Below, in pieces: positions 5,966-13,886 of a stretch of 64,000 bases of DNA. Source of the DNA: Dolichospermum flos-aquae CCAP 1403/13F (GTDB lineage Bacteria > Cyanobacteriota > Cyanobacteriia > Cyanobacteriales > Nostocaceae). The position numbers were made by a program, and so were the translations under genes. The notes under the pieces were generated by a model. It had not been told where the DNA came from. It saw nothing but the letters and a program-made list of their open reading frames with translations, and did not search any database. The DNA is taken from assembly GCF_012516395.1 (NCBI RefSeq), contig NZ_CP051206.1, forward strand, positions 3,330,501 to 3,394,500. The letters run 5' to 3'. Positions within the stretch are counted from its first letter, which is position 1. Every line of letters begins with the position of its first letter.

Positions 5966-6893
5966 TATGAGGATTTTCAGGATTGTGTACATAAATATTG
6001 AAAATGGCAATTAATGTATTCAAAATAAGTAAAGTATAAATAATCCTGTACATCCTTTAATCCTGTACATCCTGATTCAGACAAATTCCATGTTTCCTTC
6101 CATACTCAGCGAGCATTACCACCCGTCACGATTGGAAATCTTCTTTAATGTCAGCCGATTTTCCCCCAGAAACACATAAACTAGCGATTGGGTTATTAGT
6201 AAACTGTAAAGGTTAAACCCTGACGACATACTCAAAATCAAGGACAAACCACGAATGACTAAATTTCTAGACACCGCGATTGAAGCCATTGTCTCCCGCG
6301 AAATCCTCGACTCACGGGGAAGACCTACACTAGAAGCGGAAGTACATTTAGCTGGTGGTGCAGTCGGACTAGCTCAAGTTCCTAGCGGTGCTTCTACAGG
6401 CACATTTGAAGCCCATGAACTGCGGGATGGGGATAAAAGCCGTTATGGTGGTAAAGGAGTCCTCACGGCGGTAAAAAACGCCAATGAGATATTAGCACCC
6501 AAATTATTAGGGTTGGATGTCCTCAACCAAGAATTGTTAGACCGGACAATGATTGCTACAGATGGTTCTTCTAACAAATCTAACTTAGGCGCAAATGCCA
6601 TTTTAGGTATTTCTTTAGCAGCAGCCAAAGCAGGTGCAGCAGCTTTAGATATTCCTCTCTATCGCTATTTGGGTGGACCTTTGGCGAATTTATTGCCAGT
6701 CCCCTTAATGAATGTGATCAATGGTGGAGCGCACGCATCCAATAACGTAGACTTTCAAGAGTTTATGATTGTTCCTATCGGTGCGCCTTCTTTTAAAGAA
6801 GCATTACGTTGGGGTGCGGAAGTATTTGCCACTCTTAGCAAAGTGTTAGATGATAAAGGTTTGCTGACAGGTGTGGGTGATGAAGGTGGTTTT
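5966..6893 (+). repeat. Left copy of the long direct repeat containing the eno upstream region and 5' half
   Basis: This stretch is repeated at 12895-13886 with an offset of 6,993 bp for the eno part. From about 6070 the two copies are nearly identical through the upstream region and 639 bp of enolase coding sequence; identity stops at GATGAAGGTGGTTTT. Upstream of 6070 the copies are similar but diverged, and the right copy carries about 65 extra bases. The two repeats bound the xisHI segment. Confidence 0.9.
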
Positions 6894-6899
6894 TGTTAA
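6255..6899 (+). pseudogene. eno: Truncated duplicate of enolase (first 213 codons)
   Basis: Encodes residues 1-213 of enolase, including SGASTG (44-49), the substrate-binding GGAH and the catalytic-Glu motif GDEGGF (208-213), then one Cys and a stop. Metal ligands D247, E288, D315 and the catalytic Lys 340 of the complete copy are absent, so no activity is possible. Only four residues differ from the complete eno at 13248 (F4/Y, V14/I, A129/V, G202/S). Because its whole upstream region is retained, it may still be transcribed and deliver transcripts into xisH, whose start lies 27 bp past the stop. Confidence 0.9.
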
Positions 6900-6926
6900 G
6901 CTAAAGTTAATATTCTTGATTTAGTA

Positions 6927-7346
6927 ATGCCACAGTACGATTTATATCACAATCAAGTTAAAAATGCTCTAACCAAAGATGGATGGGTAATTACCGATGA
7001 CCCCTTTATACTAGAATACAAAGGCTTGCGTTTATATGCTGATTTAGGAGCAGAAAAATTATTTGCTGCCCAGAAGATGCAGCAAAAGATTGTAATTGAA
7101 ATAAAAGTTTTTAATAGCCCTTCTTTAATTACAGAATTAGAAAAAACATTAGGACAATATAATATTTATGTTAGTTTAATTAAAAGAATCAATCCAGAAC
7201 GTAAATTATATTTAGCGATTCCTGAAGCTGCTTATCAAGACTTTTTTCTTAAACCAGCTATTCAAGATATTTTAAGTGATCAACAGCAGATTAATTACAT
7301 TATTTTCGATCCAATTCAGGAGGTAATTGTACAATGGATAAGTTAG
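6927..7346 (+). CDS. xisH: XisH family protein
   Basis: A 139-residue protein of the XisH family (QYDLYHNQVKNALTKDGWVI, then ITDDPF and the core YADLGAEKLFAAQK...KIVIEIKVF). The D...E-x-K arrangement (Asp in YADLGAEK, IEIK) matches the PD-(D/E)XK nuclease fold proposed for this family. In Anabaena, XisH and XisI are needed with the recombinase XisF for excision of the fdxN element in heterocysts; homologues are common in cyanobacteria without known elements. The gene overlaps xisI by 13 bp. It directly follows the truncated eno, so it is probably co-transcribed from the duplicated eno promoter. No recombinase gene is seen in the window. Confidence 0.88.
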   Translation: MPQYDLYHNQVKNALTKDGWVITDDPFILEYKGLRLYADLGAEKLFAAQKMQQKIVIEIKVFNSPSLITELEKTLGQYNIYVSLIKRINPERKLYLAIPEAAYQDFFLKPAIQDILSDQQQINYIIFDPIQEVIVQWIS

Positions 7347-7669
7347 AAAAATACAGAAGAATTATAATTAGTATTGTTGGAAATCACGCTAAGTATAAAC
7401 CTAGTCATGGAAAAATTGAGGCTTTATGTATTTGTGATCAAGAATCTGATAATTATTTGTTAATGGATACAGGTTGGGATAAAACAGGTAGGGTTCATGC
7501 AGTGGTGTTTCATTTGCGAATTATTGATGGGAAAATCTGCATTGAATGGGATGGTACAGAAAGGGGAATAACTGGGGAATTATTGGAATTAGGAGTAGGA
7601 AAGGATGATATTATTTTAGGGTTTATTCGTCCTGAATATCGGCAGTTTACAGATTTTTCTGTGGCTTAA
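7334..7669 (+). CDS. xisI: XisI family protein
   Basis: A 111-residue protein with the XisI signature: DKLEKYRRIIISIVGNHAKY at the start, DNYLLMDTGWDKTGRVHA in the middle and IEWDGTERGI...LLELGVGKDDIILGF toward the end. It is of normal length and overlaps xisH by 13 bp, so the two are translationally coupled. In Anabaena XisI acts with XisH as an excision-controlling factor for the fdxN element. Here the pair lies inside the eno-flanked segment; whether it acts on that segment is unknown. Confidence 0.9.
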   Translation: MDKLEKYRRIIISIVGNHAKYKPSHGKIEALCICDQESDNYLLMDTGWDKTGRVHAVVFHLRIIDGKICIEWDGTERGITGELLELGVGKDDIILGFIRPEYRQFTDFSVA

Positions 7670-7724
7670 AACACAGCAATTACTACGGTGCGTCAGATGT
7701 CAAAAATCAGTTCATCTGCAAATT

Positions 7725-11999: not shown

Positions 12000-12374
12000 T
12001 TACTTAATCTCAAAGCTTGCGTAGGCTTTATCTAGATACTTTTGAGATTCTGGCAATTTTTTAAAACTATTTGCGGCATTATTCAAGTTTTTATCAGCCT
12101 CTTTAATACTGGCAAAATTTCCGTCACCTCCAATACCTACCTCAGACGCACCCCTATAACCAGACAAAGCATCATCAGCAAATTCACGAATGTTTTCTGT
12201 GGATTTTGATCTACCCTTTTCGGACTCGTAATAGTCCAAAGCTTTTAAAAGAATATTAAGATTAACAATTTCCAGCTTGTATAAAGCTTCATTCATTGGT
12301 GTTGATACAAACCGCCTGTATAAACCTAAGATAACGAAAGATCCAAGAGTTTGAAATATAAATGGGATAGCCAT
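12000..12374 (-). CDS. Small protein with an N-terminal membrane helix, unknown function
   Basis: A 124-residue protein starting at ATG 12374, chosen because GGAGG stands six bases upstream. It begins with one hydrophobic helix (PFIFQTLGSFVILGLY), then a basic patch and an amphipathic, helical, mostly charged remainder (EIVNLNILLKALDYYESEKG). It probably sits in the inner membrane with its body in the cytoplasm. It is the first gene of the operon with the 955-residue protein (49 bp gap) and the EamA transporter, and it may be the membrane anchor of that protein; this is inference from the gene order only. Confidence 0.65.
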   Translation of the reverse strand: MAIPFIFQTLGSFVILGLYRRFVSTPMNEALYKLEIVNLNILLKALDYYESEKGRSKSTENIREFADDALSGYRGASEVGIGGDGNFASIKEADKNLNNAANSFKKLPESQKYLDKAYASFEIK

Positions 12375-12408
12375 TTTAGCCTCCACTACTAGGGGAATAC
12401 ATATACCA

Positions 12409-12551
12409 CTATAAAACCAGAAACCCTAATTCCTCTTTTTGTAATGATAGTTCAAGAAAATCAGCTAATACTTGTTGTGTATATCCTAACCCAAGTAAAG
12501 CTATTCGTGCCTTCTCTCTTACTTCAGCAGAGGCTGTCAATGTACTGAGTC
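12409..12551 (-). pseudogene. C-terminal remnant of an unidentified gene, cut by the MITE
   Basis: The minus strand reads LTASAEVREKARIALLGLG, then YTQQVLADFLELSLQKEELG and a TAG at 12409-12411. The composition looks like a real helical protein end. The frame is cut off upstream by the element at 12552. I do not recognise the family. Confidence 0.35.
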
Positions 12552-12728
12552 CAGGGGAAACGCATCTAAATCTTATTGACAAAATACCGTTTTAATGTAT
12601 AAACCAAGAAATTCCTATTTATCATTTGATTGATTTTTTCAGTATGACAGTGATGGACTAGAATATTGTCAATAAGTGGTCGTTAATGCGAATAGTTTGG
12701 TCATTATTGATAAGATGCGTTTCCCCTG
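12552..12728. mobile_element. 177-bp MITE related to the ISAs1-family element at 54894-56500
   Basis: The left end reads CAGGGGAAACGCATCTAAAT and the right end AGATGCGTTTCCCCTG, a near-perfect terminal inverted repeat. The same ends, CAGGGGAAACGCATCTAA and TTAGATGCGTTTCCCCTG, bound the complete transposase-carrying element at 54894-56500; the next bases (TTGACAAAAT) also agree. The 177-bp interior has no coding potential, so it is a non-autonomous derivative that the transposase of the full element could mobilise. I could not identify a clean target-site duplication. Confidence 0.85.
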
Positions 12729-12894
12729 CTAGTGTCATAGATTCTATATTTGGGTGAAATATTTACAGCACTCAAGCACAAAATAGTCTGGAATTGATTA
12801 AAATCTCAGCTAATACAATAGATTCGATAAGAGATACCAATAATCTCAAATATATAAATTTAGGAATATCTGTCTGAATCAGGATGTCCAGGAT
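12729..12894 (+). other. Remnant of the adaptor-gene 5' end beside the MITE
   Basis: From 12733 the sequence GTCATAGATTCTATATTTGG followed by GTGAAATATTTACAGCACTC and AAGCACAAAATAG matches, with scattered changes, the signal-peptide region of the hlyD-type gene near 2019-2072. It has no open frame. It indicates that a copy of the efflux cluster once preceded the right-hand eno copy too. The rest of this stretch up to 12894 is AT-rich and I see nothing else in it except the start of a dispersed repeat (CTGTCTGAATCAGGATGTCC) near 12870. Confidence 0.65.
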
Positions 12895-13886
12895 GTGAGG
12901 ATTTACAGAATTTTGTACATAAATATTAAAAATGGCAATTTATGTATTCAAAACAAGCAAACTATCAATAAAGAATCCTGTACATTCTTTAATCCTAGAA
13001 ATCCTGATTCTGACAAAATAAAGTATCAATAAATAATCCTGTACATCCTTTAATCCTAAAAATCCTGATTCTGACAAATTCCATGTTTCCTTCCATACTC
13101 AGCGAGCATTATCACCCGTCACGATTGGAAATCTTCTTTAATGTCAGGCGATTTTCCCCCAGAAACACATAAACTAGCGATTGGGTTATTAGTAAACTGT
13201 AAAGGTTAAACCCTGACGACATACTCAAAATCAAGGACAAACCACGAATGACAAAATACCTAGACACCGCTATTGAAGCCATTATCTCCCGCGAAATCCT
13301 TGACTCACGGGGAAGACCTACACTAGAAGCGGAAGTACATTTAGCTGGTGGTGCAGTCGGACTAGCTCAAGTTCCTAGCGGTGCTTCTACAGGCACATTT
13401 GAAGCCCATGAACTGCGGGATGGGGATAAAAGCCGTTATGGTGGTAAAGGAGTCCTCACGGCGGTAAAAAACGCCAATGAGATATTAGCACCCAAATTAT
13501 TAGGGTTAGATGTCCTCAACCAAGAATTGTTAGACCGGACAATGATTGCTACAGATGGTTCTTCTAACAAATCTAACTTAGGCGCAAATGCCATTTTAGG
13601 TATTTCTTTAGCAGCAGCCAAAGCAGGTGCAGTAGCTTTAGATATTCCTCTCTATCGCTATTTGGGTGGACCTTTGGCGAATTTATTGCCAGTCCCCTTA
13701 ATGAATGTGATCAATGGTGGAGCGCACGCATCCAATAACGTAGACTTTCAAGAGTTTATGATTGTTCCTATCGGTGCGCCTTCTTTTAAAGAAGCATTAC
13801 GTTGGGGTGCGGAAGTATTTGCCACTCTTAGCAAAGTGTTAGATGATAAGAGTTTGCTGACAGGTGTGGGTGATGAAGGTGGTTTT
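12895..13886 (+). repeat. Right copy of the long direct repeat
   Basis: Matches 5966-6893: the eno upstream region is almost base-for-base identical from about 13063, and the coding part to 13886. About 65 bp containing a second AATCCTGTACATTCTTTAAT unit are present only in this copy. Recombination between the two copies would release 6,993 bp and leave one intact eno. Confidence 0.9.

Follow-up and report, generated by a model that had tools for sequence, protein, structure and literature searches.

A truncated enolase copy ahead of xisH and xisI in Dolichospermum flos-aquae looks like an old promoter-capturing duplication, not a programmed DNA-excision element

Why does a cyanobacterial genome carry the promoter and first half of its enolase gene (eno) twice, with the truncated copy placed directly ahead of the gene pair xisH and xisI (together xisHI)? 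The question is raised by a 64,000-nucleotide stretch of Dolichospermum flos-aquae CCAP 1403/13F (hereafter the window; G000:C1:3330501-3394500, in a genome of 5.22 Mb on 2 contigs that we label G000). An earlier interpretation made from the DNA letters alone, hereafter the sequence-only reading, had suggested that the segment between the two eno copies could loop out, naming the fdxN excision element as background. Our comparison with related genomes points away from programmed excision and towards an old duplication by which xisHI captured a promoter. Promoter capture by tandem duplication is probably the explanation of the locus. The mechanism is known; what is unusual is that the event is probably old and that it is seen in two genera.

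Self-comparison of the window (minimum repeat length 25 nt) revealed a gapless direct repeat of 858 nt with 98.1% identity, at 6036-6893 and 13029-13886. This confirmed that the eno upstream region and codons 1-213 are present twice, 6,993 bp apart; looser homology with small indels continues leftward to 5968 and 12896. Open reading frames (ORFs) and Pfam matches likewise agreed with the description of a truncated left copy running into intact xisH and xisI and a full right copy. The features concerned are the following.

5968..6254, + strand: second eno upstream region, a direct repeat with a conserved core at about 6133-6213
6255..6899, + strand: eno', codons 1-213 of eno followed by one further codon and a stop, with most of the enolase barrel absent (ORF, Pfam)
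6894..6926, + strand: joint, where eno codon 213 is followed by the native xisH leader of about 30 nt (TTAAGCTAAAG...)
6927..7346, + strand: xisH, PF08814 (E 4.4e-49, 166.5 bits; curated cut-off 25)
7334..7669, + strand: xisI, PF08869 (E 8.7e-39, 132.8 bits; curated cut-off 25)
12896..13247, + strand: upstream region and promoter of the complete eno (repeat partner)
13248..14537, + strand: complete eno, 429 aa (ORF, Pfam)

The homology of the left eno copy stops at 6893, where the xisH leader begins, so that a novel joint sets the promoter and a 5' fragment of the donor gene ahead of xisH. The eno' ORF of 214 aa matches Enolase_N and positions 3-72 of Enolase_C. The 3' end of xisH overlaps the start of xisI (6927-7346 and 7334-7669), and both proteins score above the curated cut-offs of the XisH and XisI families. 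An eno upstream query (6080-6275) had matches at E<=1e-3 in 114 of 217 family genomes, and in all 19 eno loci fetched from these the match lay directly 5' of eno. This family-wide search scored three candidates per genome and missed the known Sphaerospermopsis copy 5' of xisH; its count of second copies was left unused.

An eno promoter 5' of xisH was present in 3 of 34 xisH upstream regions: the window, a second genome of the genus (G005) and a Sphaerospermopsis locus (L108). The set comprised the window, G005, 13 other matches in G000 and 19 of a set of 21 further xisH loci, L109 and L110 (partial xisH) being left out. The G000 genome holds 14 xisH matches, 12 of them near full length, and no eno promoter lies in the 1,000 nt upstream of any of the 13 others. 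By eye, several of the G000 loci listed adjoin small genes of toxin-antitoxin (TA) type.

A second eno copy occurred in 2 of 16 genomes of the genus, G000 and G005. The joint of eno promoter, eno' and xisHI is the same in both, and the eno copies of G005 are 9,074 bp apart. Since the joint recurs in a second genome, an assembly slip is unlikely, and we take the duplication to be real.

We then considered what the locus may have looked like before the duplication. A Nodularia locus (L090) has the order clpB-gloA-xisHI-small genes-o76-eno-argC, with no second eno copy. (Here and below, ftsW, proB, gloA, clpB, rplI, dnaB, hlyD, macB, tolC and TA-like genes were named by eye, without a Pfam scan.) Within the genus of L090, G132 has xisI and the end of xisH at this place, and no xisHI was found there in G128 and G131. 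The position of xisHI upstream of eno in the absence of an eno copy suggests that xisHI was probably a neighbour of eno before the duplication; the captured gene would then have lain upstream of its donor, on the same strand. The Nodularia order and the absence of an eno promoter at the 13 other G000 matches also led us to reject, as the main account, a homing-type event in which xisHI entered eno at codon 213 and brought a replacement 5' half along. Self-comparison of the loci of these 13 matches (16 kb each) revealed no gene-fragment repeat ending at xisH.

From this starting point, a duplication that began about 30 nt 5' of xisH, ended at eno codon 213 and was joined without long homology would have produced the order xisHI, spacer, eno promoter with eno', xisHI, spacer, eno promoter with eno. 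The left xisHI and the spacers would later have been rearranged or lost and the joint of eno promoter, eno' and xisHI retained. The eno copies exchange sequence by homologous recombination; the same process could now and then remove the segment, and this would agree with most relatives lacking it. In Sphaerospermopsis kisseleviana the promoter alone would have been kept, fused to the same xisH leader. Tandem duplication would account for the joint, the efflux genes 5' of eno', the two types of spacer and the Sphaerospermopsis form. The sequence-only reading had offered either Campbell-type integration of a circle or unequal duplication as the origin; a duplication origin is supported, and the circle, which would leave an indistinguishable product, was kept as a rival.

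The Sphaerospermopsis form was analyzed in S. kisseleviana NIES-73 (L108), whose order is eno promoter-xisHI-Zn104 remnant-eno promoter-eno (Zn104 being a Zn-ribbon ORF described below). The copy 5' of xisH matches the eno promoter of the window at 85% over 81 nt, from -110 to -30 relative to the xisH start (E 1e-23, 93 bits; 200 shuffles peaked at 22 bits), and the strain's own eno promoter at 86% over 78 nt. The core promoter runs straight into the xisH leader (TAAGCTAAAG), and the coding part of eno' is absent. The window shares this leader with L108 and with a Nostocales metagenome-assembled genome (L092). In the window the motif GTTAA occurs twice, downstream of the promoter at 6212-6216 and again at the joint (6895-6899). 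By eye, a deletion from one to the other would come within a few substitutions and one base of the L108 sequence. This fit speaks for a single old event, after which the coding part of eno' was lost; the alternative is an independent capture of the promoter alone in Sphaerospermopsis.

Gain of a neighbour's promoter through a deletion or duplication joint, with no need for long homology, is described in PMC11111574, where the cases named include Salmonella his genes, the E. coli citrate transporter and horizontally acquired genes. The eno-xisHI locus resembles these in that a neighbour's promoter was gained through a joint without long homology. The named cases reportedly arose in laboratory selection or evolution experiments, whereas the eno-xisHI arrangement is natural and perhaps older than the split of two genera; it also differs in that its eno copies still convert each other and in that one genus lacks the leftover coding part. 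No eno-xisHI fusion was reported in the titles on xisH/xisI or on Dolichospermum rearrangements and enolase among the matches listed. The locus would be a natural and perhaps long-lasting instance in which a gene pair acquired a housekeeping promoter through duplication; relatives display the likely before state (Nodularia) and a trimmed after state (Sphaerospermopsis).

To follow the fate of the repeats, we compared the four eno copies of G000 and G005 over 215 nt upstream and 639 coding nt. Grouping by genome is seen in 19 of the 46 variable columns and grouping by position in 1; the others are private to one copy (23), form crosswise pairs (2) or are three-state (1). The left-right synonymous divergence (dS) is 0.039 in each genome, and between genomes it is 0.147 for the left copies and 0.195 for the right copies. 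As the joint is shared and the columns group by genome, the copies must have exchanged sequence after the lineages parted, and recombination between the repeats, which the sequence-only reading had anticipated, is borne out by this concerted evolution. Private states number 1 in the left and 11 in the right copy of G000, 6 in the left and 5 in the right copy of G005. The most divergent copy is thus the complete eno of G000, not eno', with five changes in codons 2-18 (window 13248-13301). Selection on eno' itself was considered and set aside, the changes being too few and confounded by conversion from eno.

Is xisHI read from the captured promoter? In Lyngbya majuscula, PMC2674450 places the xisH start point 33 bp 5' of the start codon and reports hoxW as cotranscribed with xisI and xisH. 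As the joint keeps a leader of about 30 nt and replaces what lies beyond about -31, the native xisH promoter is probably missing. No terminator-like site was found in 6000-7000. Together these features make transcription from the eno promoter likely, and xisHI would most likely be the distal part of an eno'-xisH-xisI transcript. The earlier suggestion that the eno promoter drives xisHI is therefore supported as probable by the joint and by the L108 promoter copy.

The sequence of xisH points strongly to constraint. Compared with Nodularia, nonsynonymous divergence (dN) is 0.006 and dS 0.376 for xisH (dN/dS 0.016); the values for xisI are 0.053 and 0.393. Residues D39, E58 and K60 of XisH, which we take to be those of the PD-(D/E)XK motif, are invariant across 11 aligned copies; solved relatives are 2inb and 2okf. 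These data bear on another possibility, that the arrangement is the non-adaptive remains of a neutral duplication in unstable DNA 5' of eno, with xisHI expression unaffected by the eno promoter. It would fit the absence of eno' from 14 of the 16 genomes, the presence in G012 of an eno-promoter-like copy ahead of a different small ORF rather than xisHI, and the finding that 12 of 16 genomes do not have gloA, the former neighbour, on the contig of eno and within 20 kb of it (9 of these being split assemblies). Against it stand the eno promoter directly 5' of xisH in S. kisseleviana and the strong constraint on xisH, and we consider it quite improbable.

With a highly conserved XisH, no recombinase recognised nearby and a probable glycolytic promoter, the locus fits poorly with a role limited to DNA excision in heterocysts, and this bears on the function of many cyanobacterial XisH/XisI pairs. 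We tentatively propose that xisHI may have taken the eno promoter before Dolichospermum-type cyanobacteria and Sphaerospermopsis split, and may have been held there by selection even where eno' was deleted; XisHI might then work in vegetative cells, expressed together with a glycolytic housekeeping gene, in a role unrelated to fdxN excision.

Programmed excision of the fdxN kind would have XisH and XisI control excision across the eno repeats. XisH and XisI are described in PMC4874684 as required for excision of the fdxN element, and long direct repeats flank the segment. The likeness to the Anabaena fdxN element (XisF, XisH, XisI) lies in the presence of xisH and xisI; the eno segment differs in having no recognised XisF-type recombinase and no interrupted gene. 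Pfam matches of the segment's proteins included no recombinase (the 976-aa and 128-aa proteins match nothing), and PF07508 (Recombinase) had 2 matches in the genome (424974 and 2030067), none of them in the window; tyrosine recombinases were not searched for genome-wide. The 429-aa eno is complete, the flanking repeats consist of about 0.9 kb of host gene, and the interval differs in G005. No repeat of this kind was found at the 13 other xisH loci compared (16 kb each). In the nearest case among the loci listed, L020, an xisH fragment is flanked by a 612-bp repeat (92%) of a small TA-like gene pair. Together with the Nodularia order and the 13 other xisH matches, these results make an fdxN-like element highly improbable, and that part of the sequence-only reading was abandoned.

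The gene orders around the repeats bear on the main rival, a circle re-entering by homology. The genes concerned are listed here.

2145..5959, + strand: shortened hlyD and macB and complete tolC, left of eno' (names by eye)
7725..8039, - strand: Zn-ribbon ORF (Zn104), C-terminal remnant of an 853-aa PD-(D/E)XK protein
8198..12386, - strand: spacer genes, encoding an EamA transporter and 976-aa and 128-aa proteins without Pfam match

In G000 the interval from xisHI to eno reads Zn104-eamA-p976-p128, and the G005 order is eno'-xisHI-S102-o68-two small genes-hlyD-macB-tolC-o76-eno; the neighbour orders of the two genomes are circular permutations. The hlyD-macB-tolC genes lie 3' of xisHI in G005 and G003 and 3' of an xisI remnant in G008, the G003 and G008 contigs being without eno. 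A circle carrying eno', xisHI and the efflux operon, excised by recombination, could have integrated by homology at eno in G005 and at xisHI in G000. The permuted orders and the efflux genes found with xisHI or its remnant away from eno agree with this. Unequal crossing-over in a tandem array yields the same orders, however; no circle or mobile gene was seen in the segment, and the non-homologous eno'/xisH joint still demands an illegitimate event. We consider the circle unlikely. A merodiploid, or Campbell-type partial duplication, likewise has a truncated and a complete copy in direct repeat, whereas here the eno'-xisH joint is non-homologous and common to two species. A mobile element with fixed ends was rejected, as G000 and G005 share neither the interval nor the flanks. 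Inspection by eye around the efflux genes in G003, G008 and G011 revealed no common ends.

Several observations weigh against promoter capture by tandem duplication. The left xisHI that it predicts was not found, as nothing of xisI or S102 lies left of 2145 in G000. G000 and G005 have different spacers, which makes it necessary to assume later rearrangements, and the genes left of eno' in G005 are others (ftsW- and HicBA-like by eye). In the comparison of eno loci across the family, rows of the HicA/HicB queries were dropped, the start of that ORF being eno-upstream sequence. G222, the other genome of the Sphaerospermopsis genus searched, has no xisHI near eno. A consensus scan of 6000-7000 gave 2 promoter sites against 2.3 expected, a chance level, and no sigma-70-like site in the copied promoter. 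Finally, G000 and G005 have the same xisH sequence over 417 nt and do not differ anywhere from 6899 to 7514, against a dS of 0.19 between the right eno copies, and G000 and G005 are not sisters in a tree of the eno 3' half and argC. The xisH identity makes exchange between strains likely as well, and the tree makes transfer between strains possible.

In favour of promoter capture, 7 of the 14 other genomes of the genus (G001, G002, G003, G006, G009, G010 and G012) have xisI, or part of it, on the contig of their single eno and upstream of that gene; the G009 piece has 15 residues only, and G010 has a whole xisI without xisH. In G007 an xisI piece is on another contig, and almost no sequence upstream of eno is available in G004 and G007. 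No xisI was found in the 8-13 kb visible upstream of eno in G008, G011, G013, G014 and G015. The order S102, last 18 residues of xisI, Zn104 in G001, G003 and G007 suggests a possible trace of a second, now deleted xisHI. The gloA gene is within 20 kb of eno in 4 of 16 genomes (G006, G011, G012 and G013), distant in G000, G002 and G005, and on another contig in the remaining 9. The right flank of the G003 efflux unit had long matches in 9 of the 16 genomes. Overall, the DNA 5' of eno resembles a hot spot of rearrangement.

The eno-promoter-like copy of G012 (C1:2490806; L202 6807-6886, - strand) is 76% identical and lies 5' of an 83-aa ORF that has no Pfam match, is RelB-like by eye and is near rplI- and dnaB-like genes. 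It is downstream of an xisI fragment and a gene pair encoding AAA_5 and PD-(D/E)XK proteins. The 853-aa PD-(D/E)XK protein is complete in G012, where it adjoins an AAA_5 gene, and PADLOC matched it to PDC-M26B, a candidate defence protein. The 976-aa protein of the window (9083-12013) had no Pfam or PADLOC match.

An Xre-like regulator (by eye), a ScaI-like restriction enzyme and a DNA methylase adjoin argC (window 15957-17877); in the loci of relatives these genes are present, partial or unmatched. An array of the 7-mer CATTACC lies 3' of eno (14580-14684), and long tandem repeats were seen by self-comparison at 43287-44464 and 53357-53699. Between the spacer genes and the complete eno, 33-nt inverted repeats with ends CAGGGGAAACGCATCT, spaced 111 nt (12552-12728), are perhaps a miniature inverted-repeat transposable element.

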